Source: Terriglobia bacterium (GTDB taxonomy: Bacteria > Acidobacteriota > Terriglobia > UBA7540). From it: a stretch of 64,000 nucleotides of DNA. Position 1 is the stretch's first letter. Each line of letters opens with the position of its first letter. Of this stretch, positions 3,023-47,430 are shown piece after piece. The translations under genes and the position numbers were made by a program. The notes below the pieces were generated by a model, which had not been told where the DNA came from, did not search any database, and saw only the letters and a list, made by a program, of their open reading frames with translations. Where the stretch lies: assembly GCA_020073545.1 (NCBI GenBank), contig JAIQEZ010000002.1, positions 1 to 64,000 on the forward strand. Reading direction: 5' to 3'.

Positions 3023-3052
3023 GGTTGCAGGAACGGCTTCATCAAAGAAGAA

Positions 3053-3532: not shown

Positions 3533-3697
3533 AAACCTATTCTACATTTGCATCTCCCCGGAGCTCCAGCCACAATCAAAAACCGGCCAGGGGAGGTTTC
3601 GAATGCCCCTAGCAGAACAGAGGGAACAACTGCGAGAGGGGAAGCTGCCGGTTGGAGTGGGGTCTTACGCCCATGCTCCTGTGAGAGCCGTTCGTAT

Positions 3698-4336
3698 TTA
3701 CAATTCATAGTACGATACGCATAATGTCCTAGGTTTCGTAATATCGAGGAGATCAAAGGCGAAGCGCACTCTCGGGCTTAACCACGGTGGCGGCCCGCCG
3801 GTGGCCGAAGATTGAGACCAGTGAAGTGGCTTTACCCGAGATGCGCCTCGCGAAGGTGCGAGAAGAAGGCACCTGCCATCGTCCGAGATGTGTGCCGGGC
3901 AGTCTGGCCAAAGAGCCTTGACCTGCCGAAGCCAGAAGTTGATCTTCCGCCGGAAGAAACGGTCGCTGCTGTATTCTCTGGTCCCCAATTGGTTGGCGAG
4001 ACCCCATTCTGAGAATAACGGCACGTGAGCGCCATGGTGCCTCACCGTCCAGCATTTCCACACGAGCCAAATGTAAAAGTCCAGAACTCCGGGAGAATGA
4101 GCGAACGTAGCGACGGCATGACGCTCCACCGGTATGCGATGTTGGTTGATCTCATCGTAGAACGCTTCGCTAAGGACGATGCTGTTTCCGGAGCCATCCT
4201 CGGTTCCGGGAGCCTCGGCGTGGTCAGGCGTAAACCAAAGGTGGAGGCGATCAAGAAAATGAAAACGCGACGAATCAACAAAGGGTTTGGCATCGGGGTG
4301 ATCCTGCGTGCCGAAGAAGATCGTCGCCGCTGATTC
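3698..4336 (-). pseudogene. plasmid replication initiator RepA-like protein, N-terminally truncated
   Basis: The open frame lies between TGA at 4337-4339 and the stop at 3698, about 212 codons with no ATG near its beginning. It starts SAATIFFGTQDHP, then RFHFLDRLHLWF, FAHSPGVLDFYIWLVWK, VPLFSEWGLANQLG, TREYSSDRFFRRKINFWLRQ and ALWPDCPAHIS. These blocks match the C-terminal two thirds of RepA-type plasmid initiators from memory of the family. The first GTG (4129) would give only 143 residues and drop conserved sequence, so the gene looks 5'-truncated. It lies 165 bases upstream of the primase start on the same strand, which supports an integrated plasmid-like origin for this block. Confidence 0.6.
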
Positions 4337-10828: not shown

Positions 10829-12283
10829 TTACTCCGTCGGCAGCGTCTCCATCTCGTGACGGCGAGCTTCGACCCGCATCAGGCGCGTCAACTCGGATTT
10901 TGTCTCCCCCGGCAGGCGTGAGGGCTTGCAGCGCTCGACGAGCCGCGCAACCTCCTGTCCCGCGCGTTCCCCCAAGGTTAGACGGCCATCTGCGGCCCAT
11001 CGCGCGCGGTTGGCGCGATCGATGACGGCGCCGGGAAACGTGATTTCCTCGCGCAGGTAGCGGCGGGTGTGATCAGCAATCAGCAAATGCTTCTCGCGCC
11101 GCAATTCCTCAAAGATGGGAAGCGACGGGAAGTCTTCATGCGGTTCGATTCCGCGCAAGAGGCGATGCGTCATGCCGCAAATCTCGTTGTCGACCACCAG
11201 CTTCTCCAGGCTCAGGCAGCTCTCAAAATCCAGCATCCCTGGGCCGGAAATGCTGTTGATTCCCGAGAGCGCCGCCAGCGTCGCGCCGATACCTGTCTCC
11301 AGCCCCGCCTGCGCGTCCAATTGCTTCGCGTCGCTCAAGGCGATGTAACCCTGGGTGGGCATGCCCAAGCGCCTGCCGATCTCGCTGTTCGCGCAGTCGA
11401 GCATCATGGTCTCCACCGCGCCCATGGGAGTGGTCTCAAACCGGACGTCGAAGATGGCCGGCGAGCCGCCGTAAAGGATCGGCGCGCCGGGGCTCGCAAG
11501 CTGACTGATCACCACGCCACTCAGATTTTCGGCGGTTTGCTGAAGCAGACTTCCCACCAGGGTGACGGGTGCCATGAATCCTGAAAGCGGCATGGAGATC
11601 AACTCCACCGGAATTGACCAGCGCGCACAGTCGACCAGGTTCTGGCTGGTCACATCGCTCCACTTGATGGGCGCGGTGGGGCAGCAGGAGAAGATGGTCA
11701 GGGGCTTGGCTCGCAGCGCCTGCTCGCTCCCCCGCACGGCCACTTGCAGGTCTTTCATGATCTCAAACGACTCGATCGTGAAAGCCCCCGTTACCACTGG
11801 CTTTTCACCGTACAGAAGGCTCAGATAGAGTCGGTAGCTGTCCGAGATTTTCTCGTGCACATCGGCGGGGATCATGGCGGTGCTTTGCGAAGCGAGGTGC
11901 CCGAGGCCGCTCATCAACTTCACGTAGCGAATGTAGTCTGCCGTCGTGGGCCGGCGCATTTCGCCGGTCCGGCTATCCAGAATGTTGAGCGCGGTCGAGC
12001 CGGGAGTGAAATATACGTTGTTCCCCCGGAAGTCGTGAGTTTCGTCCCCGAGAACATCATAGAGCTTGAAAGTGCGGGGGACGGTATGAAGCGCTTTGTC
12101 GATGAGGTTTTCAGCAAGGCGGGCGTTCCACGCGGTTCCGTCCACCTTGGCGCCATGATCGGCAAGCAAGCTGAGTATGGGCCGGTTATGGATCTCGACC
12201 CCCAGCGTGCACAGGAGGTCCCGCGCCTCCGCGATGATTTTGTCGATCAGTTCATCCTGCAACAATCTCAAAGTCGGTCTCAT
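10829..12283 (-). CDS. MttB/MtgB-family corrinoid-dependent methyltransferase (non-pyrrolysine)
   Basis: The family moves a methyl group from a methylated or quaternary amine to a corrinoid protein. Recognisable segments are NVYFTPGSTALNILDSRTGE, TTADYIRYVKLMSGL, GAPILYGGSPAIFDVR and GLETGIGATLAALSGINSI. Start at ATG 12283 is supported by GAGGAG four bases upstream; the longer frame to 12367 lacks a site. At 484 residues it is full length with no in-frame TAG, so it belongs to the pyrrolysine-free branch (known members use glycine betaine, proline betaine or carnitine). No corrinoid protein or reactivase gene is nearby. Substrate cannot be deduced. Confidence 0.85.
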   Translation of the reverse strand: MRPTLRLLQDELIDKIIAEARDLLCTLGVEIHNRPILSLLADHGAKVDGTAWNARLAENLIDKALHTVPRTFKLYDVLGDETHDFRGNNVYFTPGSTALNILDSRTGEMRRPTTADYIRYVKLMSGLGHLASQSTAMIPADVHEKISDSYRLYLSLLYGEKPVVTGAFTIESFEIMKDLQVAVRGSEQALRAKPLTIFSCCPTAPIKWSDVTSQNLVDCARWSIPVELISMPLSGFMAPVTLVGSLLQQTAENLSGVVISQLASPGAPILYGGSPAIFDVRFETTPMGAVETMMLDCANSEIGRRLGMPTQGYIALSDAKQLDAQAGLETGIGATLAALSGINSISGPGMLDFESCLSLEKLVVDNEICGMTHRLLRGIEPHEDFPSLPIFEELRREKHLLIADHTRRYLREEITFPGAVIDRANRARWAADGRLTLGERAGQEVARLVERCKPSRLPGETKSELTRLMRVEARRHEMETLPTE

Positions 12284-13206
12284 TCGTCTCCTCGCGAGTG
12301 GGGTCAACCGTCGATCTGCTCCCATAGTCCGGTTGCATGATTCGCTCGCCGGGGGTTGTAGGTACAACCTGAGACATCAAGTCTCCGATACCGGCGGCAA
12401 GTGTCTGTCGAGCGCACCTCGTGCCGTTTCGACTGCTTGAGCCGAAACGCCGTTTGAAAGTGGCGGCAAGCTTCTTTGTAATCTTCGTTCTGGAATTCAG
12501 TAGTTGGAACGGCATGAGCCGGGCAGTATATGCTCGGACCGGAGAGGTTTCAATGGCGTTGCCGGAGTTTCCTAAACCGTGGGTCAGGGGTTCGAGTTCG
12601 CACGGGCTTACTATCCTTTCTCGGTTCGCTGCAAGGAGATAGCTCTCTTCCCAATCCAAGCCGGAAATCCTCACGCGGCCTGTCTGTAGTGAAATTGTAG
12701 TGAACCCCGATCCCGAAGTAGGAAGCCGGGTTGGGACCTTAGATTGGGCATTTCGAGAAACATGCGAGCACGCCATAGAGAACAATTCCAATTTCGGCGG
12801 GGTTGGATTTTCACAACGTAGCCCGCTGGCGAGAAGAGGCTTATACCGGACTACTCAACCGCAACTTCGGGATCGGGGTGAAGCGACGCGGCCAATCGGC
12901 CTTACCCTCGTTGGGGGCTCGCGCCCAGAATCCCTTACCTGCGGAGGCCGCCAAGCTGACGTTGGGTGGGTTCGAAACGTCGCGTGAGTGCCCCCTTAGG
13001 ATGCCGAGGTCAGGTCCGGGGCCGCGCCTATCGCTATGACCACCGTGTCGAGATCACTCCCGAGGGCCTGTGGCGAACCACGGCGTTGGCGGGCAGGGCC
13101 GCGGACCGCGAGGTCCGGTACACGTTCCGCCCAAGCGTCGCGAATTTAAACGATTGTTTGTGTCAAGAAACTGCACGGTCAGCCGATATCTCTTGGGAGA
13201 TTGAAT
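12284..13206. other. gene-poor stretch with tRNA-end scar
   Basis: It contains the third tRNA 3'-end copy (12586-12613) and a GTAGTG-n5-GTAGTG direct repeat at 12685-12704. Small frames here have no motifs. Confidence 0.45.
12586..12613 (+). repeat. tRNA 3'-end copy 3, decayed
   Basis: AGGGG, TTCGAGT, then TCGCA, CGGGCTT, A, CTA. It aligns with the copy at 4656-4683 over 28 bases with about six changes, several of which break the T-stem. As after copy 2, a GTAG(T/C)G direct repeat lies roughly 75 bases downstream. Confidence 0.45.
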
Positions 13207-13947: not shown

Positions 13948-15477
13948 CTATGGCACGGTGGGGCTGACGGAGCCTCCTCCTGCGGCCAGCGGAATGGCGG
14001 CCACCGCTGCCGCTCCCCCTGCGAGCAGCGCGATAGACCCTCCCGGGGAGAGCGACCCAATGTGCCAGGGCTCCTTAACCGCGGCTCCCGGCCTTCCGGG
14101 GACGGTGGCTCGTATAGTTGAATCCCCCACATCGGTTTGGTTGATTCGGCCTTGTAACTGGGGAGGTGACACCTCGTTGGGCAGGGTGGGATGCTGCTCC
14201 GCGGTAACAATCGTGAACTGACCCGGGTGCAATCTGACCCTCTCGGTAAGGGTCCGTTTGCGGTTTCCAGCTGTGACTAGACCTCTAACGCAGTCCACTC
14301 GCGTCTCTTTAGGATCCGCCTCAACGAGAAACACGGTATTTGCCAGACCACTTACCACGCCGATTGTCGCTGTCGGGGTTTCCACGTGAAAGGCTGCGTT
14401 GGGATCGGTGAGTTCCACCACCTCAGCGCGCATGCGCCCCTCGTTTAGCTCTACCTGAGTCTGCTGAGTTTGGGGGTCGTGCCTGGTAACCTTCATGACC
14501 GAGTGAGCGCCGACGTTCAGGAAGGACCCACCTAAAAGCGCGATCCGAACTCGGCCGCCCTTCGAAGTACTGACGACATCTGCCCAGTTGATCGCATCAT
14601 TTACCTTCAGCGGAGTCCACTCACCTTTCCCTAGGTGTTGTACAGCTTCCTCCGGGATAGCGTTGCTGACGGTCCCGGCTTGCCCGGCCGGGGCTTGCTC
14701 AGCCGGGAGTTTCTCGGCCGGGGCTTGCTCGACCGGGGGTTTCTCGGTCGGGGCTTGCCCGGTCGGCGCTTGCTCGACCGGGGGTTTCTCGGTCGGGGCT
14801 TGCCCGGTCGGCGCTTGCTCGGCCGGGGCTTGCCCGGTCGGGGCTTGCTCGGCCGGGGCTTGCCCGGTCGGGGCTTGCTCGGCCGGGGCTTGCTCGGCCG
14901 GGGCCTGCTCGTCCCCCTGTTTTTCTTGCGCGGGAACCCCCACGGAAGAGGCGGGGATAGCCGCGTATTTCCCCTCGTGAAGGATATACCTACCACTCGA
15001 ATCGTGGGTATTGATGAGCAGGTTCCCCTTCACAGCGGCAGCGATGGTCTCTTGCTCCTTCGATAGTCGAACCAGGTAACGACAGTCTCCCTCTTGCGAA
15101 GGCGTGAACCGGTACTTTGGAGTGGTCACGACAATCGCGGGTTTGCCGGCGCTTTCCGAAACCACCACACCCGATAGCAACTCCGCTTGAACCTTCTCAC
15201 CATCGCGAAGAAAGCGAACGGAAGTGTTCTCGGTGATTTTCACTTTCGCCCCCGACTGCAGTTCCACCAGGGCACTTCCACCCCCTGAGGTGACCAGCAC
15301 ATCGCCGCTGAAAATCGTCTCCGACTTGGGGACCGGCACTCCCCTCAAGCTTGTACTGGAGGAATAGAGAATGCGACCTAGCTGCTGTTCTCCTGCTCCC
15401 GGGGCTCCGGGTAAAAGCAGAAGCAGGCATCCGAGGACGCTTGCGAACACAATCCGGATTCGAGATTCTGGTGCCAT
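13948..15477 (-). CDS. FecR-domain protein with a pentapeptide repeat tract
   Basis: Starts at ATG 15477 behind AAGGAGA. It has a signal peptide ([19 protein letters not shown]) and a first FecR-like beta domain ([34 protein letters not shown]). Next come 15 pentapeptides of the form (Q/K)xP(A/T/V)(E/G), then a second FecR-like domain ([56 protein letters not shown]). It ends in a hydrophobic segment ([20 protein letters not shown]). FecR domains elsewhere sense or scaffold at the envelope; no sigma factor or TonB receptor is adjacent, so this is likely a stand-alone surface protein. 309 bases separate its start from the polysaccharide locus, with no clear terminator. Confidence 0.8.
14686..14910 (-). 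repeat. in-frame 15-bp tandem repeat in the FecR gene
   Basis: About 15 copies of a unit resembling GCCGGGGCTTGCTCG encode the pentapeptides [20 protein letters not shown] and KLPAE. Units differ at few bases, which suggests recent slippage growth. Confidence 0.85.
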
Positions 15478-15786
15478 AGCTTTCTCCTTTGGAGAGGTTA
15501 CCATGTCTCCCCGAAAAACGTTTTCCCTGCCTGACCGAGGCGCGGCCTGGCGGGTCCAATGGAAATCGAGAATTCCCTTCCTGAGTTAGTCAACAGGAAT
15601 TCGTGGCGGGGAGACGTGGGAGGTCAGCAACTAACGAGTTTCCCCTGCCCACCGCAGATCTAACCAGTCGCGGGTCGCCTGTCCACGACGAGAGGTTTTC
15701 CGCCACAACCGGCTGATCGTCAACGCCACTGTGGTCGCTAGCGATCCACGGACCATCCCGGGACCAGAATCTTTGCACCCTCTCGT

Positions 15787-17334
15787 TTATTCCCTTGCTC
15801 TGGCAAAGCCTCCGTGACCCGCAAAGGACAGGCGGGCGTCTGCGGGCAGGGGCAGAATTCCCTCCGCCCGAAGTACCCGGTCCAGACCGGGCAGCAAATG
15901 GAGTTTGACCCCCAGGTCAAAGCAGCGCTGACTGAGTTCATGGACCCTATCCAGGTCTATCGACTTCACGCAGACGACAAGGTCGGTCACCTTGTGACGA
16001 GCGCACAGAGCTTCCAGGTTCTCGGAATTACCCAGAACCCGGCATCCCGCCAGCAGCCTTCGGTATTTTGTCGGGTCATCGTCCAGGAACCCCACAAGGT
16101 GCATTTGGGGGTACTGATGCATGTCAACGGCGGTGGTCAAGCCCAGCAGGCCCGCTCCCAGGATGAGCACGCGGTGCACGGCTTCGGGAAGGGGCTGGTA
16201 ATGATGCTGCAGCACGTAAAGCATCCGGCGCAAGCTGCGGAGTCCCACGCCGGCACTCAGGGCCATCAAGTATTCCAGGGTGGCGACGCTCAAGGGAACG
16301 TGCAAGAGAGCTGCCTCCCATGAAGGTGAAGGCAGCCACAAGCGCAGCGCCAGCAAGACCAGCGTGACAGGAGCGAGTGCCACCGCCAGAAGAAAAACGT
16401 CCACAAGGTTCACGTACCGCCACATCATATCGTAGACCCGCAGCCACCGGTTGGCGAGCACACGCACGGGCGGCACAATAACCAAGAACAACCACATCTG
16501 CGTGCGGTAGAAATCCGGGAAGCCAGCATCGTACCGGAAGGTGTATGCCAACCAAGCCGCGCCCACATACGTCACGAGGTCGAGGGTAATGTGGGCGCCA
16601 CGGTCGAAAGGCCACACTTCTCGCCGCAAGATACGGAGCCCCGCGGCCAGCGACCTTCCTGGACTACAGACCAGGAGCAAGGTCAGGACGATCAGTTTCA
16701 AGTCCAGCAGGAAGGTCGGGTTCTGCACATATTCGGCATCGAGCGAGAGTTTCTGCGGCAAGACCTTCGTGCGATAAACTACCTGCGGATCGGCCTGCCG
16801 GGCACAGTAATCAGCCTCCATGTGGTGGTGGATGGAGGCAAAGGAAGTCACCCCCGGCCGGGCAGTCAGAAGAATCCGTTGCTTGGGATCGTCAAGATCG
16901 ACCTCACTCGGAACCCGCGGCCGCGATCCCACGAAGCTCATCTCACCGCGCAGAACATTGATGAGTTGTGGCAATTCGTCGAGCTTGGTACGGCGAAGGA
17001 AGCCGCCAACTAGGGTAAGGCGCGGGTCGCCGTTCACCACCACAGCCGAGCCCAGCGCTTCGGCTCCCTCCTTCATCGTCCGAAACTTGATGAGCGTGAA
17101 GGGGCGCCCAAGATACCCCACGCGGGTCTGCCGGAAGAGCACCGGGCCCCGGGAGGTCAGGCGGACCAACAGCGCGCAGAAGATCAGGAGGGGGCTCAAG
17201 ACCGCCAAGCCGGCGAGAGATGCGGCAATATCGAAGAGGCGTTTCCCATGGCGCACATAGAAGGAGGTGCGCGCAGCATCGGAAACCGCCCGCGGGATAA
17301 TGGAACTGCTAAGCCCAGTTGTAATGGTGGCCAT
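15787..17334 (-). CDS. initiating sugar-phosphate transferase fused to a CapD/FlaA1-type membrane-Rossmann module
   Basis: The first 215 residues are a bacterial sugar transferase of the WcaJ/PglC type (RLFDIAASLAGLAVLSPLL, PVLFRQTRVGYLGRPF, KFRTMK, RRTKLDELPQLINVLRGEMS, VGSRPRVPSEV). It would place sugar-1-phosphate on undecaprenyl phosphate. Residues 235-350 form about four membrane helices starting with LVTYVGAAWLAYTFRYDAGF. Residues 365-505 form a Rossmann-like domain (RVLILGAGLLGLTTAVDM, LVGFLDDDP). These two parts equal the N-terminal half of CapD/FlaA1/WbpM dehydratases and of WcaJ, but here they follow the transferase instead of preceding it, and no SDR catalytic domain is present. 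It is the last gene of the locus. Confidence 0.85.
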   Translation of the reverse strand: MATITTGLSSSIIPRAVSDAARTSFYVRHGKRLFDIAASLAGLAVLSPLLIFCALLVRLTSRGPVLFRQTRVGYLGRPFTLIKFRTMKEGAEALGSAVVVNGDPRLTLVGGFLRRTKLDELPQLINVLRGEMSFVGSRPRVPSEVDLDDPKQRILLTARPGVTSFASIHHHMEADYCARQADPQVVYRTKVLPQKLSLDAEYVQNPTFLLDLKLIVLTLLLVCSPGRSLAAGLRILRREVWPFDRGAHITLDLVTYVGAAWLAYTFRYDAGFPDFYRTQMWLFLVIVPPVRVLANRWLRVYDMMWRYVNLVDVFLLAVALAPVTLVLLALRLWLPSPSWEAALLHVPLSVATLEYLMALSAGVGLRSLRRMLYVLQHHYQPLPEAVHRVLILGAGLLGLTTAVDMHQYPQMHLVGFLDDDPTKYRRLLAGCRVLGNSENLEALCARHKVTDLVVCVKSIDLDRVHELSQRCFDLGVKLHLLPGLDRVLRAEGILPLPADARLSFAGHGGFARARE

Positions 17335-17416: not shown

Positions 17417-18601
17417 TCACGTGGCTCGCCAATCGCGACTGGGGAGCGCGTACCGGCCCGTTGCGCTGAGGTGATCGATCCCCACCTGATCCACCAGCGT
17501 CCGGACAATGCGTGCCGACGCGTGGCCGTCCCAGAGAGTGGGGACCTGACCTTTCTTTCCTTCACCCCGAAGGATCTTGCGCGCTTCCTGGACCAGACGG
17601 CCGGCATTCAGTCCCACTAACAGGTTCGTACCCTCGCTGATGGTGATAGGCCGCTCGGTGTTCTCTCGGACGGTCAGGCAGGGGACCCCCAGCGCCGTGG
17701 TCTCTTCCTGCACGCCCCCGGAGTCCGTAATCACGAGGGCAGCTTCGCTCTGAAGTTTCAGAAACTGTAGATAGCTCATCGGCGGAACCAGGCAGACGCC
17801 GTTTGAAGCGTCCTGCCACGAACCGCACAGTCCGCCTTCTTTCATCCGGTTTTGCGTACGGGGATGGAGAGGAAAGATCAGAGGAACTTCTTTGGCAATT
17901 TCCTCCAATGCTTCCCAGATCGCGCGCAGCGTCCCCAGGTTGTCTACAGCCGAGGGCCGATGGAGGGTCACCAATCCATAAGACCCAGCCAACCCTCCGT
18001 TGTGTTTGCTCCGCGCGCAGAGTTCGGGCGGGACCGCACGGCGCTTCGCGTGAGGGAGAAACCGTCGCAGGGCGTCGATCATGACATTGCCGACAAGAAA
18101 GATTCGCTCCTTGGGCCGGCCTTCTCTCAGCAAGTTATCCACGGCGCTGGGCTCCGTGACGAAGAGAAAATCCGATATGGCATCGGTGAGAACCCGGTTG
18201 ACCTCTTCCGGCATGGCTCGGTCAAAGCTTCTCAATCCCGCTTCCACGTGCGCGATGGGTCGGCCCATCTTTACCGCGGTCAGGGCAGCCGACAGGGTGG
18301 AATTGACGTCGCCGACCACAACCACGACGTCGGGTTGCGTTTCCTCCATCACCCGCTGCAGCCGCAGCATGATTTCGGCGGTTTGCGTGACCGCTGTGCC
18401 GGAACCCACCTCCAGGTTGACGTGAGGCTCGGGTATCTCCAGGTCCTCGAAGAACGCCCTCGACATTTCATAGTCGTAGTGCTGCCCGGTGTGGACCAGA
18501 ACCGTCTCGATGTCGGAATGGTGGCCCAGTTCCTCCATGAGAGGTGCAACCTTGACGAAGTTCGGCCGCGCTCCAACGATCGTAAGTATTCGCATTGGCA
18601 T
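17417..18601 (-). CDS. wecB: UDP-N-acetylglucosamine 2-epimerase (non-hydrolysing)
   Basis: Converts UDP-GlcNAc to UDP-ManNAc in the cytoplasm, supplying a polysaccharide precursor. Motifs along the 394 residues: ILTIVGARPNFVKVAPL, HTGQHYDYEMSRAFFEDL, VVVVGDVNST, HVEAGLRSFDRAMPEEVNR, LVTLHRPSAVDN and ITDSGGVQEE. All are standard for WecB/MnaA and the length is normal. ATG at 18595 (MRIL) is an alternative start; neither has a strong ribosome-binding site. No WecC-type dehydrogenase is in the window. Confidence 0.9.
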   Translation of the reverse strand: MPMRILTIVGARPNFVKVAPLMEELGHHSDIETVLVHTGQHYDYEMSRAFFEDLEIPEPHVNLEVGSGTAVTQTAEIMLRLQRVMEETQPDVVVVVGDVNSTLSAALTAVKMGRPIAHVEAGLRSFDRAMPEEVNRVLTDAISDFLFVTEPSAVDNLLREGRPKERIFLVGNVMIDALRRFLPHAKRRAVPPELCARSKHNGGLAGSYGLVTLHRPSAVDNLGTLRAIWEALEEIAKEVPLIFPLHPRTQNRMKEGGLCGSWQDASNGVCLVPPMSYLQFLKLQSEAALVITDSGGVQEETTALGVPCLTVRENTERPITISEGTNLLVGLNAGRLVQEARKILRGEGKKGQVPTLWDGHASARIVRTLVDQVGIDHLSATGRYALPSRDWRAT

Positions 18602-31433: not shown

Positions 31434-32285
31434 TTAAGCCTGGCAGTATAGGAGGTGCTGGTGCGCGACATCATCGTGAACGCTGGTCAAACCGGCTAGA
31501 GGAAGGAACCGGCAGTGGCTGAACCCGGCCCCTTCTGCAAGGCTGAGCATCCGTTCGGGAGATCGCGAAAAGCAATCGAGCCCGCACCTGAGTTTCACAC
31601 GACCGCGCAAGGATGTGTCGCCCAGCCAATCAGCCTCAGATTTCCAGCCCACACCATTGATCACGACATGCATGAGCAGCCGTCCGCCCGGACGCAGCAT
31701 GTGATGAACGGTCCGAAGCGCCTCGCTCAGTACGGCGTCCCGAAGGTGCTGAGCAACCGCGAACGAGTACGCCAAGTCGGCAACACCCTCGTACTCGGAC
31801 GCCCGAATAACATTGACGTACCGGATGTTGGGGGCGCCGTTCAAGACCCGCGCGCAGGCGAGAGCACCCTCGGAAACATCGCAGGCGATGACGCACTTAG
31901 CAAACAGCGCGGCCTCAACGGCCATGTAGCCCGGACCGCATCCGTAATCCACAACCACGTCGCCGGGACTAATATGCGGCCTGATTACATCGTGAACGAT
32001 TTGGCGGCGAGAGACTCTGTTTCGTTGTGCTTCTTTTTGCAACACACCTCCCGGTACCCAAACCCGCCCATCCTTGTCAAAAATGTAATGGGGGCTGAGC
32101 GAAAGCATGCGCAGAGCAATTCCCTCCCGGTATATGGCGGGTGCCCTATCGATTAGTAGGCGGGCCCACCATGCCCCAAGAAAGTTCTGAGAAGTCCCCC
32201 AACCCATCGCCGGGGTGTACCGAAGCAGGGATTTGAGTTCCTTCAACACTCGAGAAGGAGACCAAGCTTTACACTGCATTCTCAT
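31434..32285 (-). CDS. SAM-dependent methyltransferase
   Basis: Start at ATG 32285 overlaps the stop of the upstream polymerase-like gene (ATGA). A front region without a clear match (about 100 residues, with VWVPGGVLQKEAQR) is followed by the Rossmann motif VVVDYGCGPGYMAVEAALF, CDVSEGALACARVL, VADLAYSFAVAQHLRD and HHMLRPGGRLLMHVV. About 283 residues. A longer frame to 32402 lies inside the upstream gene and is rejected as start. Probably methylates a sugar of the repeat unit. Confidence 0.82.
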   Translation of the reverse strand: MRMQCKAWSPSRVLKELKSLLRYTPAMGWGTSQNFLGAWWARLLIDRAPAIYREGIALRMLSLSPHYIFDKDGRVWVPGGVLQKEAQRNRVSRRQIVHDVIRPHISPGDVVVDYGCGPGYMAVEAALFAKCVIACDVSEGALACARVLNGAPNIRYVNVIRASEYEGVADLAYSFAVAQHLRDAVLSEALRTVHHMLRPGGRLLMHVVINGVGWKSEADWLGDTSLRGRVKLRCGLDCFSRSPERMLSLAEGAGFSHCRFLPLAGLTSVHDDVAHQHLLYCQA

Positions 32286-33826
32286 GGACGGCGAGTCAGT
32301 ACTGGAAATGATGTAGCCAGCCTTTTTCGTTGGGTGCTGGAACCGTAAATCAGCCGACGCAAAACATAGAGGATGGCCAGCAGTTTGATCAGACCCGTCC
32401 ACATAGAAAATACGTCCGGTTCAAGAGGGAAGCCAAAGAGGAAAAGGGCGGCGTATACGAACAAATCCCGTGATTCCACTCCACCGCTCACGCGGTTCGT
32501 GAACCACTGGGCGACGATGCCCAAGACGAACATCCCCACCGGGATCCCCAACAAGCCGAACTGGAGGTATAAGTCACCTGGATATGTGATCGCGGTGGAG
32601 CTGCCGACATTGTCAAGGTTTTCAGAGCCTCCCCTCAGAGCAACGGTGAACCATCCACCTTCCTGGAGAATCGGTTTGGACGGCCAGAGAAACCGTGGAA
32701 CGAAGGGATAAAACGGAAGCATCCACCAGTGTATGTCGCCTTTCACCATGCTCGCCCGAGGACCCAGTGAGAGCACCTCGGCAACGCTCGTGAGCAGGTC
32801 CAAGCGCCGGAGCGTATGGTCCAGCCCTTCGCGCCAGAGATCGCCTGTGGTTGACTTACCTTCCTCCATTTTGCTGAAGGCCATTTGGCCAGCGCGCGCC
32901 CCTCCTTCAAAGCTCGTAACTTCCGCACCCCCTCCACGCACTAACGAACGGTAGGCGTCGGAAACAGGATAGAGAAGCACCAGTGCGAAGAACGGAATGA
33001 CAAGCCACCGCAGGTTTAGCCTTCGCTTAACGAACGAGGAGACAAGCGCCACCACGATAAAGTTTTGAAGCACCAAGCCCTTCATCCCGGAGATCAAGCC
33101 CCAGCAGACTTCCGATGAGAGGACTGCTACGAAAAGCAGCCTCCAGAACGGATCATAGCGTTCGCGATACCTTTCGATAGCGACGATGATGAGAGCCAGA
33201 GTTCCGAGTTGCGAAACGTAGTTCAGCACCTGCATGGAAGCGAGATTCTCGAAATACTTTTCCCCGGACGCTGTGTATGAAAACAATTGGCTTTTCAAGA
33301 GGTAGAACCTAGTGACGAAGGCGACGGCAAACAGCGCTGCAAACAGTAACACTGCGCGAGCTTTGTGCACCTCAGGCACAATGCTTTGTGTGCCCGGGCC
33401 TGGGGAAATCCGGTCGCCCTTCTTGCGCCGGGCCAGCTCACAACCAATCCAAAAAGCCATCATGCCCAAAATGACGTAGGAGAGTGCACGGCCCAATTCT
33501 TCGCCGTCTGGGGATAAGTTGCTGACGAGCTGCGCCGGATCTATGAAATTGCGCAGAGGGAGCAGCCCAAACTGGAGGAAAAACATGGCAGTCATGAAAA
33601 CCGGAAGTTCAAACAATTGCAGTTTGCCTCGTCGAATTCTTGACACTACAAATACGGCGGACGAAGCACCGTAAAAGCCAAGTAAGGCCAGATACCTTTG
33701 CAGTTGAACCCTCTCGCCGCCGAGAATGAAGGTTACTCCCCACACGATTGCGCCCAGCGCGAGGCTCAGCAAGACCAGAACGTGGAGCGGAGTAAAGGCC
33801 GTCGCCGGCGGGCGCCTCACTTGCAC
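32282..33826 (-). CDS. polytopic membrane protein, Wzy-like polymerase candidate
   Basis: 514 residues with about 11 to 12 predicted membrane helices (for example LHVLVLLSLALGAIVWGV, AVLLFAALFAVAFVTRFYLL, FIVVALVSSFV, WLVIPFFALVLLYPVSDAY). A large loop of about 100 residues (residues about 300-400) includes WWMLPFYPFVPRFLWPSKP and TAITYPGDLYLQFGLLGIP. The topology and the late PGD-LY-FG segment are like O-antigen polymerases of the OAG or Wzy type. With flippase and ligase-like genes nearby it is the best polymerase candidate, but sequence alone does not prove it. Confidence 0.65.
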   Translation of the reverse strand: MQVRRPPATAFTPLHVLVLLSLALGAIVWGVTFILGGERVQLQRYLALLGFYGASSAVFVVSRIRRGKLQLFELPVFMTAMFFLQFGLLPLRNFIDPAQLVSNLSPDGEELGRALSYVILGMMAFWIGCELARRKKGDRISPGPGTQSIVPEVHKARAVLLFAALFAVAFVTRFYLLKSQLFSYTASGEKYFENLASMQVLNYVSQLGTLALIIVAIERYRERYDPFWRLLFVAVLSSEVCWGLISGMKGLVLQNFIVVALVSSFVKRRLNLRWLVIPFFALVLLYPVSDAYRSLVRGGGAEVTSFEGGARAGQMAFSKMEEGKSTTGDLWREGLDHTLRRLDLLTSVAEVLSLGPRASMVKGDIHWWMLPFYPFVPRFLWPSKPILQEGGWFTVALRGGSENLDNVGSSTAITYPGDLYLQFGLLGIPVGMFVLGIVAQWFTNRVSGGVESRDLFVYAALFLFGFPLEPDVFSMWTGLIKLLAILYVLRRLIYGSSTQRKRLATSFPVLTRRP

Positions 33827-37573: not shown

Positions 37574-38389
37574 TCAATTATGGAGGATGCTGAGCCGATA
37601 TAAGAGCTGCACGGTCTTCTGGTGGATCGCCTTTGCGCGTGCAAACAATTCCGGGTTCCTTTCTTTGCACCTACGGGCAACGGGGACAAGCGCATCTTCC
37701 AACCGCCGGAGCCGGCTGCCCATTCGGAAGCTGTCGCTCGCACCTGCATGATTGAAGACCGTGTTGTAGTAACTAGGGAAAAAGGCAGCCCGGAACCGTG
37801 ACTGTTTCGCGAACCTGTCTTCGTAATCAAGCTCGCATTCCTCCATCCGGCACCTTTCCCGGTACTCACCCAGGTAATGAACCAGCTCATTCCTCTTGAG
37901 GTGGGGGCAGTCCGAGTAGACATGTTGAGTTAAAGGGGATGAGCTGGACTCTCTGCAGATTAGGTAGCAGTCTGGGCCTTCGAGGTCACGAATCCTGAAC
38001 TCCGCGTTCACCCCGTGAGCAACTCCGCAAAACTTAACGAGACCAATGTCGGGGTGAGCTTCCATCAGGAGGACCGTCTGCTCCAAGTACCGCGGCGGCC
38101 CCTGGCATTCCCAATCGTCCTGAATCTGCAAGATATACTTCCCGGCGCACTGCTTGAGGCCGGCGTTGGTGTTTGCCCCCAGTCCTCGATTCTTTTCGGA
38201 AGCAACTAACTTCTGAATCGGCAATGTCCGCATTTCCGCTTGCATCCACTTGGGACTGCCATCATCGGCGACTACCAGTTCAACATTGGGGTAGTCGTTG
38301 TTGCGAAGGAAAGACAGCACGGTCCTTTGGAGAAGATGAATCCGCCTGTAGGTTATGAACAGCACCGAAACCAGAGGACCTTGGTTCAT
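37574..38389 (-). CDS. glycosyltransferase family 2-like
   Basis: 271 residues: VSVLFITYRRIHLLQRTVLS, VELVVADDGSPKWMQAEM, NRGLGANTNAGLKQCAGKYI and LQIQDDWECQGPPRYLEQTV (DDW acidic motif). It starts with ATGA overlapping the flippase stop. A gap of 162 bases to the next gene shows no feature. Acceptor unknown. Confidence 0.83.
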   Translation of the reverse strand: MNQGPLVSVLFITYRRIHLLQRTVLSFLRNNDYPNVELVVADDGSPKWMQAEMRTLPIQKLVASEKNRGLGANTNAGLKQCAGKYILQIQDDWECQGPPRYLEQTVLLMEAHPDIGLVKFCGVAHGVNAEFRIRDLEGPDCYLICRESSSSPLTQHVYSDCPHLKRNELVHYLGEYRERCRMEECELDYEDRFAKQSRFRAAFFPSYYNTVFNHAGASDSFRMGSRLRRLEDALVPVARRCKERNPELFARAKAIHQKTVQLLYRLSILHN

Positions 38390-39810
38390 GGCTCAGCCAG
38401 AACGCGTGCGGCGCAAATTAGACGTGCGGTCGGTTCGGGTTCCTGCCGGGCCTTCAGGCTCCTGGTAAGAGAAACAGTTCCAGCTAGGAGAATAGAAGCC
38501 CACAGAACATAGGAGAGAAAGGTAGTGGCCCCGGCGGCGACTATGCCCCAGCGGGGAATTAAATAGATGTTTAACAAAACGTTCACTGTGGCGCCCGCCA
38601 GGTTAGCCAGGGAGAGGATACTGGTATTTTTGGCAGCAAAAAGGACTGTCACGGCGGACGAACCGATGACGAAGAAGATGTGCCCGGCGGCGATGAGTAA
38701 CATTAGCCTCCAACTGGACCAGTAGCTCTCACCTACGAGCATGAGGGCTATGCGTCTGCCGACGAAGCAGAGGAGGATTGTCCCGGCCGAAGCGGCGGCA
38801 AGTCCGGCGAAAACCCTCAACCACAAGCTGCGGCTGACCGCTTGCCAGTCGCCCTCCGCGGCGCGGGTGTAAGTCCGTGACCGGCTTACCGTGTCCAACC
38901 ATCCATTCAAAATCTGGTAGGGAAGTGACCAGAGACCGTAGTTCATCGTGTAGATCCCTACTGCACTCAGGCTCAAGTAGTGCCCGACAACGTAACGGTC
39001 TGAGGTTGTAAGTACCCAGCCGAAAAACGTAGCCAGATATACTCCCCCAGCAAATCGGCTGGCCAGACCCCGCGAAGCCTGCGCCTCTTCCAGGCCGGAA
39101 GAACGAACGCTTGGCTGCGTTGACGGATGTCGGCGGTCAGCGAAAACAAGGACAAGTGCGAGCGATGCCAGGGCTTGGGAAAGGATGATACCGTAAGCGC
39201 CAGACAGACCGGTGACAAGGAGTCCAAGTAGAAGGGGAACTTGGCCCGCCTTGAAGAGTAAGGTCGCAAATGCCAGGGGCCGGTAGCGGCGTTGAGCTTC
39301 AAGATAGTTGTTGGTGGCACTGGCGTGTGGCTGAACAAAAAGCAGCATGGCCGCGGGAAGAACGAGACCAAGATACAGGTGATTCCCTGCCCAACGGCCT
39401 ATTACTGCAATGAGCGCATAACAGATGGTGGAAAGCATTCCCACGCCCACGAGGAGCCATCTGAAACGTGCGTAGTAGGAGTCCGCACTTCCTCCGTTCG
39501 CGTGGTCAAAACCGAGCCGCAGGTGCGCAGTCAAGAGGGGATTAACCAGGAAAAGGGTTAGGAGCCCGATCACGCCGAGCACAAGACTGGCACGACCGAA
39601 CTCAGCGTTTGGGACGAAGGCAGCTATGACCTTTAGCGCGGCAAGTCCCCCCAAAACGGAGAATAGGTTGCCAGTCAGTGACCACCATGCATCTGGGAGG
39701 AGGGTGCGCGAACGAAGCTCCGGCAAATAGGCGTGGAGGACCTTCAGGGTTGCATTAAGCAGTCGGTTTCCGTGTTCGGCGCGCTGCAAAGAGATACTCA
39801 CGTTCGACAA
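38386..39810 (-). CDS. Wzx-type oligosaccharide flippase
   Basis: 474 residues, about 12 to 14 membrane helices in MOP-family arrangement. Segments: NLFSVLGGLAALKVIAAFVP, LGVIGLLTLFLVNPLLTAH, LATFFGWVLTTSDRYVVGHY and SAVGIYTMNYGLWSLPYQIL. It would move the finished lipid-linked unit across the inner membrane. ATGA overlap with the downstream GT2 gene. It resembles polysaccharide biosynthesis C-terminal proteins by topology and motif pattern. Confidence 0.83.
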   Translation of the reverse strand: MSNVSISLQRAEHGNRLLNATLKVLHAYLPELRSRTLLPDAWWSLTGNLFSVLGGLAALKVIAAFVPNAEFGRASLVLGVIGLLTLFLVNPLLTAHLRLGFDHANGGSADSYYARFRWLLVGVGMLSTICYALIAVIGRWAGNHLYLGLVLPAAMLLFVQPHASATNNYLEAQRRYRPLAFATLLFKAGQVPLLLGLLVTGLSGAYGIILSQALASLALVLVFADRRHPSTQPSVRSSGLEEAQASRGLASRFAGGVYLATFFGWVLTTSDRYVVGHYLSLSAVGIYTMNYGLWSLPYQILNGWLDTVSRSRTYTRAAEGDWQAVSRSLWLRVFAGLAAASAGTILLCFVGRRIALMLVGESYWSSWRLMLLIAAGHIFFVIGSSAVTVLFAAKNTSILSLANLAGATVNVLLNIYLIPRWGIVAAGATTFLSYVLWASILLAGTVSLTRSLKARQEPEPTARLICAARVLAEP

Positions 39811-40846: not shown

Positions 40847-42337
40847 CTAAGGCACTGCTGCCCTGGGCGGAGATGTAGCGATGGCGGCGCACGCGGCGAA
40901 CCACGCGGCGTTGGCGGGGATGTGGAGGTTGAAGTCCGCGAGGCTATGGACGAGGAGGCCGCAGCAGCCGAGTGCGGCGCCGAACTGAATCCACCCGGCG
41001 CGATGCTTGAGTCGTTCGCGTAAATTCCCGAAGGCCAGCCAAAAGAACAACCCGAGCGCGAACAAGATCAGCGCTCCGCCGGCGATGCCCGTTTCAGCGA
41101 GCGCCTCAGCATAGTCGTTGTGGGCGTGGTCCCACGTGAGGTCGCCTGGAAAACCCTGGTACCGGTGGAAGACCGTCTCAAAGCTGCCCAGGCCGGCGCC
41201 TAGCCAGGGATGATCGCGGAGAATCCGCAGAGAGTCACGACTCGCAACTAAGCGCTCGCCCAGGCCTACCTCGCGCGAATGGGTGATGTCCACCACGGTC
41301 TCGAGCCGCTCCAAGCTTTGGCGCGGCGCCATCCAAACGAAGAGTAGTGCGGCGGCGACGAGGGCAGAACTCCCCAGCACGGCCGTGGTTTTGCGCGCGC
41401 TCGCCGGCCCGCGCAGGAAGATAAGCACCGCCGCTAGCAGGACCTCCATCGCCAGGGAGATCAGGCCTCCGCGCGAACCCGAGAGCAGCACGGACACAAT
41501 CGGGATCAACACTACGCAGCCAAGAAAAACGGCCAGGGCGGTGGTCGAGGATTCCCGCCCCGCCCTGCTTGCGCCTGCCTGCTGGTAGGCAGGGCCGGCA
41601 AGCCGCGCAGGCAGGTTCTGCGGAACCTGTCCCGATGCTTCGGATGACACGGCGTGGGAAGGGGGTAGCGACGGGGGTTTGCGAAACGCTGTCAGGACGC
41701 TGGCAACCACTAGGGGGATCAACATCTCCATTAAACCCGCGTAATGGTTGTGGTTGACATAGGGCCCGAAAGTCCAACCGGGGCTCTTCACCGTCCAGTA
41801 GATCAACCCGTGGCTCGAGAAGAACTGGAAGATGGCAAAAAGCGCCAGCAGAAATGCGTACACGACGATCGTCCAGCGAAGTGTGTCACCCCGCTCCCCT
41901 ATGGGGGCGAGGGTTGAGCGCGCGGGGGCCGATGCGCCGAGAAGCTGCGCAGCCATGAAAAAGAGAACGAGGTCTGTGGCGAGCTTGAGCAACGATTCCC
42001 GTGTGGCGACAGGATCCATCGTGAGATGACCAAAGAATTGGACCATTCCCAGGAAAAAGAAGAGCCCGGCGGGCACGTAGAGCGGTGACCAGATAATTCT
42101 CAGCGCCCCTTGTTGCACGCTGCCCATTGACCACAACAGAAGCAGAAGAAACGCCAGGACCGCGAGCGCCCCCCAGGCCCATTCCTGGACGGCGCCAAAA
42201 GGCAGCGGCGCAGCGAGCAGTGTCGCTACCAGCAACGCGCGCGTGAGGGCAAACAAACACGGCGGCGTCTTGGTCTGCTGGCAGCTTGCTTCCCTGAAAA
42301 AAGGGACCTTGGTATCAAGGGCGACTGATGATGGCAT
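40847..42337 (-). CDS. O-antigen ligase/polymerase-like protein (Wzy_C)
   Basis: Polytopic protein of about 496 residues with a Wzy_C/WaaL signature. Helices include LFALTRALLVATLLAAPL and WGALAVLAFLLLLLWSMG; the conserved loop is GPYVNHNHYAGLMEMLIPL and the late core is LGAGLGSFETVFHRYQGFPG and WDHAHNDYAEALAETG. ATG at 42337 is chosen over TTG at 42355. A stretch at about 41550-41645 encodes an in-frame insert that matches an intergenic repeat family. It could join polysaccharide to an acceptor or polymerise it; a second polymerase-like gene is in the locus. Confidence 0.8.
   Translation of the reverse strand: MPSSVALDTKVPFFREASCQQTKTPPCLFALTRALLVATLLAAPLPFGAVQEWAWGALAVLAFLLLLLWSMGSVQQGALRIIWSPLYVPAGLFFFLGMVQFFGHLTMDPVATRESLLKLATDLVLFFMAAQLLGASAPARSTLAPIGERGDTLRWTIVVYAFLLALFAIFQFFSSHGLIYWTVKSPGWTFGPYVNHNHYAGLMEMLIPLVVASVLTAFRKPPSLPPSHAVSSEASGQVPQNLPARLAGPAYQQAGASRAGRESSTTALAVFLGCVVLIPIVSVLLSGSRGGLISLAMEVLLAAVLIFLRGPASARKTTAVLGSSALVAAALLFVWMAPRQSLERLETVVDITHSREVGLGERLVASRDSLRILRDHPWLGAGLGSFETVFHRYQGFPGDLTWDHAHNDYAEALAETGIAGGALILFALGLFFWLAFGNLRERLKHRAGWIQFGAALGCCGLLVHSLADFNLHIPANAAWFAACAAIATSPPRAAVP
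41550..41645. repeat. in-frame palindromic repeat insert inside the ligase-like gene
   Basis: ATTCCCGCCCCGCCCTGCTT and CTGCCTGCTGGTAGGCAGGG resemble the repeat at 43838-43894 (CATTCCCGCG, CCTGCGCTTGCCTGCG). The insert encodes about 30 residues with a low-complexity composition. Confidence 0.45.
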
Positions 42338-42424
42338 GGCTATGACGTGCTGCAAACTAGGTCGTCAAGAGTGAATCGCCAAAGGTTGAAAGTCCGTCAA
42401 CAAGGGAGCGGGGAACGATCTTGC

Positions 42425-44045: not shown

Positions 44046-46292
44046 CTATGCCCTGACCGCGTCGGCCTTCGCCGTTCGCTCGTTATCACCCGAGTGATAG
44101 TAGTAATGATTATGATAACCGTAATATCCGTCATGGCGCACGTCCACCTTATTGAGGACGATGCCCAGAACCTTTGCCCCGACGTTTTGCAGAATCTTGC
44201 GAGCACGAGTCACGGCTCCTCGGACGGTCGCGCCACTCTCTATGACAAAAACCACCCCGTCCACGAAAGTTGAGAGGACCATCGCATCCGCAACGGGAAG
44301 CACGGGTGGGGAATCAATCACCAGGAACTTGAACTGCTTGCGCAATTCTCGGAGCATTGATTCCATGGCAGAGGAGGAAAGCAGTTGCGCCGGGTTGGGT
44401 GGCTTGGGGCCGGTGGGGAGTGCCCAAAGAGTGGGTACCGGGGGAAACTGTCTCAGCGCCTCCTCGAGGCTGTGCGCTCCGGTCAGGAAGCTCGCGAGAC
44501 CTTTGCCATTACCCAGATTGAGCGACTCAGCGATTCTGGGATGGCGAAGATCCGCATCGATAAGCAGAGTCGGCTCTCCCCTCTGAGCGAGTGCGATCGC
44601 CAGGTTGAGAGCTGTGCTTGTCTTCCCCTCATTAGCCGTAGAGCTGGTGATCAATAACGCCTGGGGCGGCTGCGGGGCCGTCGAGAGTACCACCGAGGTC
44701 AGGAGAGTTCGAAAGGATTCTGCCAGCGCCGAGGAGGGTTGACTCAAAAGCGCTAATCCCTGTGTTGCTGCCAACCCGCCGTTGTTTCCTGGAAGCGATG
44801 GACGGGGTCGCCGAAGCGTATCGCGAGAGAATGGGATAACCGCCAAGGCCGGAGCGTTAGCCAGCCTCTCCGCCTCATCGATGCTCTTGATGGAAGTGTC
44901 CACAGCTTCTTGTACGAAGGCAAGCGCCAAACCGAGGACTAGTCCGACGGTCAGGCCAATGAGGATATTGAGAAGCTTTTGAGGACGCACCGGCGACCTG
45001 GGAGGTTTTGCCGGGTCGATTACATGAATATTCGTTGCGCGCAGACCCGCTGAAACTGTCGCATCCTTGAGCCGCTGCAGGAGGTTGTCATAAAGTTGCT
45101 GATTTGTCTCAAACTCACGCTTCAGGAGATTGTGCTGGATCAGGAGCTGGTTCAGTGCCCCCACTTCGACTTTTTCTTTGGCGACGGCAGCCGTGAGGAG
45201 CCTCTCCCGACCCTGGGCTGCCATGTAATCATTCCTGATCCTCTCCACCATGCGTTTTCGCTCTCTCTGGATCAGCGACTGAATCTCATCCACCTGACTC
45301 TGCAGCCGCTCGGCTTTGGGGTGCTTCGGCCCGAACTGCTGCAAGGCATCAACGTATTGCGACTTCAGGTCAGCACACTTTTCTTCCAGCCGCTGCAAGA
45401 GGTCGTTTTGCGCAACGAAGGCGACTTGCGATTCGTTCGAGCGCACCAGTTCATAGACCGACTCTTTTTGCAGCCGATCGCTTTGGGCGTTAGTCAGGTC
45501 TCGACTCAGATCGGACAGTCTCTGCTCGACGACGTTCTCCTTGTCGCTGACATTAACAATAGCGTTCTGCCTCTCATAATCGACTAGCGCCTGCTGTGAC
45601 TTTTCGACTTTGGCTTTCAATTCATCGAGTTGGTGTTCCATCCACCCGGAAGCCTGACGAGTGGCGTCGTACTTCTCCCGAAAATTGTATTCGATGTAGT
45701 TACTCGCCAGCGCGTTTGCGACTTTGGCGGAGAGGCCAGGGTCGGCGCTCTCGAAACTAACATTCACGACGTGGCTGTCGCGTACTTTCTGGACGTGCAG
45801 AGAGCCCTTGAAGGGCCCGAGGAGTCCATCGGGCGACGTTGTGGGTTTAGCTGAAAACGGGCTGTTTGCCTGCCGGATGGCGACGCCCCAGGCCGGATCT
45901 CTCGCCAGGCTGAGTTGCTCGATCGTGCGCTCCGCCAGGCTGTCGCCTTCGAGGACTTGAATTTGCGTTCCAATGAATGCTTCGTCGGTGGGGATCTGGC
46001 GAAAGAGGTCATTCAGCGATTGAATTTGAAGCGTGTCAGCCTCGATGTCCAGACGGACCGTGGCTTCATAGATCGGCGTCATCTTGAAAGACGCGATCGC
46101 AACCAGCAGCGTCACAATAAAGGTGACGGTCACGATCGTCCAGCGACGCTTGTTGATGATGTTCCAATAGGTTTGCAGGTAGCTGAAGCTGTCGAACTCT
46201 TGTGCTTCGATATCGAGGACCGGGATAGCCGGCGAGTGTGCAGCTTCTGGCAAGTTCGGCCCTCGCGGCACGAGGGCCTGGTTATCAGGCAT
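44046..46292 (-). CDS. polysaccharide co-polymerase / BY-type tyrosine autokinase (Wzc-like)
   Basis: About 748 residues. An N-terminal Wzz domain with a first membrane helix (IVTVTFIVTLLVAIASF) and long periplasmic coiled coils is followed by a second helix (LNILIGLTVGLVLGLALAF). The BY-kinase domain comes next: Walker A ITSSTANEGKTSTALNLAIA, A' LLIDADLRHPRI and Walker B FLVIDSPPVLPVADAM. It ends in a Tyr cluster (GYYGYHNHYYYHSG) for autophosphorylation. It controls chain length and works with Wza. ATG at 46292 has AAGG close by; the frame also opens at GTG 46301. Confidence 0.92.
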   Translation of the reverse strand: MPDNQALVPRGPNLPEAAHSPAIPVLDIEAQEFDSFSYLQTYWNIINKRRWTIVTVTFIVTLLVAIASFKMTPIYEATVRLDIEADTLQIQSLNDLFRQIPTDEAFIGTQIQVLEGDSLAERTIEQLSLARDPAWGVAIRQANSPFSAKPTTSPDGLLGPFKGSLHVQKVRDSHVVNVSFESADPGLSAKVANALASNYIEYNFREKYDATRQASGWMEHQLDELKAKVEKSQQALVDYERQNAIVNVSDKENVVEQRLSDLSRDLTNAQSDRLQKESVYELVRSNESQVAFVAQNDLLQRLEEKCADLKSQYVDALQQFGPKHPKAERLQSQVDEIQSLIQRERKRMVERIRNDYMAAQGRERLLTAAVAKEKVEVGALNQLLIQHNLLKREFETNQQLYDNLLQRLKDATVSAGLRATNIHVIDPAKPPRSPVRPQKLLNILIGLTVGLVLGLALAFVQEAVDTSIKSIDEAERLANAPALAVIPFSRDTLRRPRPSLPGNNGGLAATQGLALLSQPSSALAESFRTLLTSVVLSTAPQPPQALLITSSTANEGKTSTALNLAIALAQRGEPTLLIDADLRHPRIAESLNLGNGKGLASFLTGAHSLEEALRQFPPVPTLWALPTGPKPPNPAQLLSSSAMESMLRELRKQFKFLVIDSPPVLPVADAMVLSTFVDGVVFVIESGATVRGAVTRARKILQNVGAKVLGIVLNKVDVRHDGYYGYHNHYYYHSGDNERTAKADAVRA

Positions 46293-46350
46293 GGCCTTCA
46301 CCCCAGCAGATAAGGATTGTCCAGGAAATTCGGGCGTGCGTCACGCATCC

Positions 46351-47430
46351 TCACCAGTGCCAGATCAGGAGGCTGGTCGTGGTGTAGATAGCGGCTTCGG
46401 CGCCACGGCGCAAGGCCCGCTTTCCTGTGCTGTCCGCGACGAATAGGATGTCGTTGGCCTGCAGTCGGGGATCAGCCTCTCGACCTTCCAGCACGTTCTT
46501 CAGGTTAACCGCAATCTCTTCTCGTCCATTCGGCGCCGCCGCACTTTTCCGCATGATCATGGCTTTCTTCCGGGCAGCCGTCGGTTTCAGATCCTCGGCA
46601 AGCGCCAGCGCCTGCAAGACAGTCATATCTACCTGACCGGTCTTCAACGGGAACCCTCCCGGCCGATTCACCGCGCCCACGACATAAACGATCCCGGCGC
46701 GTTGCACCGTGACTCTGTCTCCGGGATACAGGTCCACGTTGAAAGCGGGGTCCCCGGTCTCCTCCAACTGCTTGAGGTCCACCGTGAAGGTTTGAGCGCA
46801 AGGGGCCTGCCGGGCCGCGGACTCACACTCTCCGGATTGCTTCAAGGCCTGCATCGCAATTCCTCCCCGGGTTATGAGGGCCGTCCCGCCCGCGTCATTC
46901 GCCAGGCCTTGTGCCTGCGAGAGGACGTCCAACAACGTCGCCTTTCCAAACAAGGGATAGATCTGGGGCGTCTTGACTGCCCCCGCTACGGTGATGGAAT
47001 GGACGCGAGACTCCTTGACGGCCACCGTCACCCGAGGATGACTGTAGATTTCTGCCTTGCGGTATTTCTCGCTGATATGTTCGGAAAGCTGAGCAGGCGT
47101 CAGCCCCGCGGCTACGATGGCTTCGGAGAGCAAGGGCAGCTCGATCTGCCCGGCTGGGCTGACACGGTATTCACCGGAAATATCAGGGGAGTCATAGACG
47201 CTGACGATCAGGACGTCAGCCGGGCTAATAATGTAGTCAGGGAGGGCCAGGGAGGCAGACGCCGCCGGTGAGGCTGGTCCCGATACGATTTCTGAGTCAG
47301 GGACGACGGCCCGAGGGGTTTGCGCGGCCAGGAGCGGACAGCAAGCCAAGATGAGCGCACAGGCGGCCGCAAGCCTGTTTCCCATGAGCTTTCTCAGAAG
47401 GGTACGCGGAATGCCAGCCGATACTACCAT
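46351..47430 (-). CDS. polysaccharide export outer-membrane protein (Wza-like)
   Basis: 359 residues with a signal peptide and possible lipobox (LAAACALILACCPLL), a PES domain (VLIVSVYDSPDISGEYRVSP, GQIELPLLSEAIVAAGLTPA) and one to two SLBB domains (SITVAGAVKTPQIYPLFGKA, IVYVVGAVNRPGGFPLKTGQ). It forms the outer-membrane export pore. AGGAG lies seven bases before the ATG at 47430. Ends 59 bases before Wzc. Confidence 0.92.
   Translation of the reverse strand: MVVSAGIPRTLLRKLMGNRLAAACALILACCPLLAAQTPRAVVPDSEIVSGPASPAASASLALPDYIISPADVLIVSVYDSPDISGEYRVSPAGQIELPLLSEAIVAAGLTPAQLSEHISEKYRKAEIYSHPRVTVAVKESRVHSITVAGAVKTPQIYPLFGKATLLDVLSQAQGLANDAGGTALITRGGIAMQALKQSGECESAARQAPCAQTFTVDLKQLEETGDPAFNVDLYPGDRVTVQRAGIVYVVGAVNRPGGFPLKTGQVDMTVLQALALAEDLKPTAARKKAMIMRKSAAAPNGREEIAVNLKNVLEGREADPRLQANDILFVADSTGKRALRRGAEAAIYTTTSLLIWHW

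Follow-up and report, generated by a model that had tools for sequence, protein, structure and literature searches.

Background

For WbaP, one of the large monotopic phosphoglycosyl transferases, the consulted portion of PMC10942596 describes an isolated Rossmann-type domain that is stabilised by UMP, UDP and UTP, an inhibition of the enzyme by UMP (apparent IC50 of 4.1 uM) that its authors read as feedback control, and a dimer held together through a beta-hairpin that lies between its Rossmann-type domain and its transferase. The same portion of that paper covers the catalytic role of the Asp-Glu pair in monotopic transferases and the bifunctional transferases (Bi-PGTs), in which domains are fused at either end, and states that the N-terminal module of WbaP recurs in PglF-like dehydratases, a sharing that the authors call 'puzzling'.

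The gene described here lies in a stretch of 64,000 nucleotides (the window, that is, the whole DNA that was analysed) from a Terriglobia bacterium whose draft genome, 95.5% complete, is in 261 contigs (assembly GCA_020073545.1, contig JAIQEZ010000002.1). The Terriglobia are a class of the Acidobacteriota. We propose that the gene probably encodes a functional initiating phosphoglycosyl transferase, which would have originated from a fusion of a small transferase with a CapD/PglF-type dehydratase and the loss of the SDR domain of the latter, and whose C-terminal tail would be an anchor and most likely a nucleotide-binding tuner.

Domain order and predicted structure

The window protein is read from a single ATG-to-stop frame of 515 codons (Table 1), in which Pfam detected Bac_transf (PF02397; 188.6 bits against a cut-off of 27) at residues 31-222 and CoA_binding_3 (PF13727), the CapD/WcaJ-type Rossmann domain, at residues 362-482 (27.4 bits, cut-off 25). 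The PF13727 score was slightly below this cut-off in two of the four close members (24.8 bits in L008 and 23.8 bits in L018). No SDR family was found in the window protein by Pfam at E<=1. The C-terminal, catalytic parts of the NCBIfam WcaJ/EPS_sugtrans models matched residues 27-223, and the order of the parts is therefore reversed relative to WcaJ-type enzymes. An AlphaFold2 model of the monomer, built from a 51-row alignment (mean pLDDT 87.5, pTM 0.73; error maps not inspected), consisted of a kinked re-entrant helix at residues 25-60 followed by the transferase fold, membrane helices at residues 245-267, 274-297, 310-333 and 348-378, and a Rossmann fold at residues 387-490. When the model was compared with solved structures, residues 11-224 matched residues 264-471 of WbaP 8t53 (Z 20.4, 2.9 A over 166 residues), residues 22-225 matched PglC 8e37/8g1n (Z 18.6), and residues 385-509 matched 3nkl (Z 15.8, 3.1 A over 110). 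The preliminary description of this gene had placed the transferase first and the helices with the Rossmann domain second, with no SDR domain, and Pfam, NCBIfam and the model all bear this out. A Bac_transf match over its cut-off, the Asp-Glu pair and a re-entrant helix with a Pro break place the protein among the monotopic transferases. At residue 137 (16924-16926, minus strand) the window protein has Ser, while three close relatives have Pro in a GPRP motif; this change could matter for activity, and it may be a polymorphism, an error or a real change.

Table 1. Features of the fused gene and of the surrounding cluster in the window
Feature	Position	Strand	Basis or remark
Fused-protein gene	15787..17334	-	Small monotopic phosphoglycosyl transferase and dehydratase-derived 4-helix/Rossmann module, 515 aa
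Phosphoglycosyl transferase domain (Bac_transf), residues 31-222	16669..17244	-	Pfam and fold matches
Ser47-Pro48 in re-entrant membrane helix	17191..17196	-	No variation among the four close members or in L103
Asp119-Glu120, where monotopic transferases have their catalytic Asp-Glu pair	16975..16980	-	Invariant in alignments
Fusion junction/linker, residues 224-244	16603..16665	-	Little conservation; low-confidence stretch at 228-230
Four membrane helices, residues 245-378, probable CapD/PglF-type dehydratase origin	16201..16602	-	Module trees and model
Rossmann domain (CoA_binding_3), residues 386-490	15865..16179	-	GAGxxG, DDD..K and VLG motifs retained
Short tail and stop	15787..15864	-	Mostly disordered, low-confidence in model; dehydratase SDR would come next, absent
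wecB, non-hydrolysing UDP-GlcNAc 2-epimerase, next gene upstream	17417..18601	-	TIGR00236, 332 bits, cut-off 210
FecR-domain protein, next gene downstream	13948..15504	-	Domain match
Wzy-like polymerase	32282..33826	-	Weak family matches
Wzx-type flippase	38386..39810	-	Family matches
Wzy_C O-antigen-ligase-family protein	40847..42355	-	Domain match
Wzc-type chain-length/ATPase protein (Wzz, GNVR, ATPase)	44046..46301	-	Domain matches
Polysaccharide export (Wza/EpsE-type) protein	46351..47430	-	Below the models' own cut-offs

Conservation of the tail

Between the window protein and its homologue in genome G004, amino-acid identity was 72% in the transferase, 57% in the helices and 60% in the Rossmann part, with pN of 0.16, 0.25 and 0.22 and pS of 0.64, 0.66 and 0.72, respectively; synonymous change between the two is near saturation, so that only the direction, pN<pS, is trustworthy. 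All three parts thus appear to be under purifying selection, and the tail, being less conserved than the transferase half, is evolving faster. The GAGxxG, DDD..K and VLG positions of the Rossmann part are invariant in all four close members, and the GAGxAG motif of dehydratases has drifted to GAGLLG or GAGFSG in the close fusions.

These observations bear on the main rival explanation, namely that the tail is a bare membrane anchor or oligomerisation platform whose Rossmann domain has lost nucleotide binding. The faster evolution of the tail and the drift of GAGxAG would fit such a role, and, in the consulted portion of PMC4361858, the transferase half of WcaJ is enough for activity in vivo; however, the invariant motifs and the purifying selection on the Rossmann part speak against a domain that has lost its ligand, and we regard this explanation as unlikely. 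Our best guess is that the tail would exert control by nucleotide: in addition to holding the enzyme in the membrane, it would most likely bind a uridine nucleotide or a UDP-sugar and tune the transferase, as has been proposed for the related N-terminal module of WbaP. The preliminary description had similarly raised a coupling of nucleotide-sugar sensing to initiation, which may apply here and which agrees with the WbaP data in the consulted portion of PMC10942596. Since nothing folded follows the Rossmann domain in the window protein, an exact copy of the WbaP-style dimer control is impossible.

The exopolysaccharide cluster

The same-strand cluster in which the gene is located (Table 1) also contains a glycosyltransferase, and its contig has no other Bac_transf match than this gene. 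Judged by predicted gene content, it is the only initiating transferase of a full Wzx/Wzy-type exopolysaccharide cluster. Because it is the sole Bac_transf on the contig, stands among such genes and has kept Asp119-Glu120 and Ser47-Pro48 invariant, the window protein is likely an active initiating transferase, and from its family and these retained residues the N-terminal domain would be expected to transfer the sugar-1-phosphate of a UDP-sugar to the membrane carrier. Several other genes were noted in passing. The FecR-domain protein carries a Pro/Gln/Ala-rich repeat stretch, and the fusion in L008 is followed by a gene (2928-4328) that resembles it by eye and has no such repeats. A Trimethylamine methyltransferase (MTTB) family protein (10829-12367, minus strand, 238 bits) and a 1641-aa hybrid sensor kinase with several PAS domains, two receiver-domain stretches and Hpt (51795-56720, minus strand) are also encoded in the window.

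Elsewhere in the window genome PF13727 was matched by only two other frames, of 533 and 548 aa, both of which also had Bac_transf, and the only strong Polysacc_synt_2 match was a 388-aa frame without the helices/Rossmann module. This is relevant to the idea that the tail is a docking module, which would pair with its counterpart in a complete dehydratase and pass the product of the latter to the transferase. An ancestral neighbourhood of transferase and dehydratase genes is in keeping with docking, as are the complete 647-aa dehydratase frame about 2.5 kb from the fusion in the G998 cluster and the DegT-type aminotransferase genes that immediately precede the fusions of G740 and G998 (two distant genomes introduced below), but no complete membrane dehydratase was found as a partner in the 95.5% complete window genome. 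Docking is therefore unlikely in the window genome and possible in G998, and as a general explanation we consider it a poor candidate.

Descent of the two parts

Module trees were used to place the helices and the Rossmann domain. In a tree of 41 rows, all 20 WcaJ/WbaP-type modules were on one side (95/97) and the fusions were among the dehydratases; the four close fusions grouped with seven dehydratases (97/92), and a 14-row group (100/100) contained the close fusions, seven dehydratases and the G740 fusion. The rows of the trees were a selection of ours, and seven long ones (LG_L002, L060, L063, L070, L077, L079 and L098) had been dropped before this tree was made. A second tree of 38 rows, which also included the G998 fusion and dehydratases from further phyla and in which 8 of the 27 LG rows were kept (LG being the label of all transferases preceded by more than about 180 residues), gave the same picture, with the WcaJ/WbaP-type side at 85/92 and the fusions with seven dehydratases at 96/90. 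L117 formed a long branch in the trees. A single clade of fusions was disfavoured: forcing the close fusions and G740 together cost 10.8 log units in the 41-row tree (p-AU 0.026), and forcing the close fusions, G740 and G998 into one clade cost 24.5 in the 38-row tree (p-AU 0.0067), these p values being after the fact, as the tests were named once a quick module tree had been viewed.

In a transferase tree of 85 rows, the four close fusions formed one clade (100/100) and fell, together with G740, into a 22-row group of small transferases that contained no LG row (87/90, not starred), and 21 of the 27 LG rows were in a separate 25-row group (100/96). Five of the six LG rows outside the main LG group were scanned with Pfam (L079 was not), and none was WcaJ-like. 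L060, L063 and L070 have a glycosyltransferase domain fused ahead of the transferase and perhaps combine the first two sugar steps in a single chain; L077 and L098 have about 410-490 residues before the transferase, with no Pfam family at E<=0.001.

From the module trees and the transferase tree, the parts of the window protein are taken to be a small transferase and the front half of a dehydratase: its second half appears to nest with CapD/PglF-type dehydratases and not with the N-terminal halves of WcaJ/WbaP-type enzymes, and the fusion likely arose at least twice independently. The preliminary description had considered both a domain permutation of the WcaJ type and a fusion with a truncated CapD/FlaA1. 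The latter is well supported by both kinds of tree, the missing SDR domain and the model. A permuted large transferase would explain why the same three kinds of parts occur in reversed order, but its module should not then side with dehydratases, apart from WcaJ/WbaP-type modules, nor its transferase half with small transferases, and we give this explanation very little credence.

Occurrence of the layout

In an order-level search with the full protein, an uninterrupted frame with both halves was found in 4 of 40 genomes: G000 (the window genome, 100% identity), G004 (63%), G017 (51%) and G032 (46%). A fifth spanning match, in G013, consisted of two neighbouring genes with stops between them and is not a fusion. 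The preliminary description had called for a check of continuity at residues 215-235, and there the three close homologues and two less closely related proteins with this layout read straight through; the junction is taken as continuous because it is uninterrupted in these homologues, whose single frames rule out two separate genes. An assembly chimera or a dying gene, conceivable for a draft genome, is scarcely credible for a protein whose junction and domains are common to three other genomes and whose parts are all under purifying selection.

The layout was rare in the samples searched. At the class level (399 genomes, best three candidates per genome), the matches with E<=1e-50 included no SDR-less single frames other than these four proteins, and at the phylum level (396 genomes, best three candidates per genome) at least one more was found, a 526-aa protein in G740 with 33% identity. 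Among 299 genomes of Pseudomonadota, the phylum of L013 (best five candidates per genome), there was at least one, G998, with 476 codons from the point used. No SDR-less fusion was detected with the best six candidates per genome in 247 genomes of Bacteroidota (phylum of L010) or in 249 genomes from the phylum to which L014, a Clostridiales MAG, belongs; in this last set a spanning match of G1508 was two adjacent genes. As only the best three, five or six candidates per genome were scored, all these counts are lower bounds. The G740 and G998 proteins had Bac_transf followed by CoA_binding_3 and nothing else by Pfam at E<=0.001. In a plasmid collection, none of 1005 matching records had a single place that covered 80% of the window protein. 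The L117 protein was so covered in 92 of 1003 matching records; the 15 of these that were listed were two adjacent genes each, a sugar transferase with an epimerase/dehydratase or a polysaccharide biosynthesis protein, and are not fusions. The fusion gene of G017 is flanked on either side by a carbamoyltransferase-type gene (L105:6820-12333), of which one was identified by Pfam and the other is similar by eye.

A literature search found no paper on a transferase-first, SDR-less layout, and absence from print is not claimed; the preliminary description had allowed that the architecture might prove common and already described, which was not the case in what we searched. The key survey of the superfamily is that of O'Toole et al. 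2021 (PNAS), which PMC10942596 cites.

Origin from neighbouring genes

Seventeen loci have a short transferase frame immediately before a same-strand dehydratase frame (L019, L027, L055, L056, L069, L088, L089, L096, L099, L101, L075, L118, L119, L129, L130, L132 and L135), with SDR sequence in view in 16; the pair in L075 is cut by the contig end. These loci were chosen by likeness to the query, and 17 is not to be read as a frequency. L094 has the gene pair in reverse order. Furthermore, one 851-aa frame (L107:8011-10566, G322) combines Bac_transf, CoA_binding_3 and Polysacc_synt_2 by Pfam, and this three-part protein is likely truly bifunctional. Six-frame segments of at least 20 aa were searched with profiles at maximum sensitivity, and no SDR remnant, downstream or frameshifted, was found beside the fusions; SDR profile hits in L105 (a 367-aa frame) and L108 belong to other genes, and L108 had served as the positive control.

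All observed forms would be accounted for if a small transferase gene had fused with the gene immediately downstream, encoding a CapD/PglF-type membrane UDP-sugar dehydratase, through loss of the stop between them, and the last domain, the catalytic SDR domain, had then been lost, leaving the four-helix bundle and the Rossmann domain as a C-terminal tail. Fusion and loss together are the likely route, and the SDR domain might have gone either after the fusion or before it. An enzyme resembling the large transferases would thereby have been rebuilt more than once, with its parts reversed and from a different source. More tentatively, the four-helix and Rossmann unit could be a portable, order-independent membrane controller that senses nucleotides and has repeatedly been taken from a neighbouring dehydratase to re-create a 'large' transferase, with the dehydratase activity discarded; we hold this wider proposal to be possible, at somewhat less than even chances.

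Comparison with known systems

The interest of the window protein lies in this repeated, reversed reuse of a dehydratase module. If the wider proposal is true, these natural reversals would mean that control is independent of the WbaP layout and its hairpin. A module that is kept when the SDR domain is dropped, at the other end of a transferase, amounts to a direct experiment on its purpose, and its role must be one that needs neither the SDR domain nor the WbaP hairpin and that tolerates both orders of the parts.

Like the large monotopic phosphoglycosyl transferases (WbaP, WcaJ, EpsZ), the window protein combines four membrane helices, a Rossmann-type domain and a monotopic transferase in one chain; unlike them, it has these parts in reversed order, with a module of apparent dehydratase origin and no beta-hairpin between the parts. 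With its helices and Rossmann domain at the C-terminus (Pfam, model) and a module of different descent (module trees), it falls outside that class. The transferase half resembles the small, PglC-type enzymes by fold and by tree position, but these stop after the transferase, whereas the window protein continues with a tail of about 290 residues. This helices and Rossmann half is like that of the CapD/PglF/FlaA1-type membrane UDP-sugar dehydratases, whose catalytic SDR (Polysacc_synt_2) domain is absent, in contrast, both from the protein and from beside it. As in the Bi-PGTs, a second, pathway-related part is present at the C-terminus, but this partner lacks its catalytic domain, so that the protein can hardly be called bifunctional in the plain sense. 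On the basis of sequence and model, the transferase-first layout is thus best regarded as a variant within known enzyme classes and not as a permuted WcaJ.
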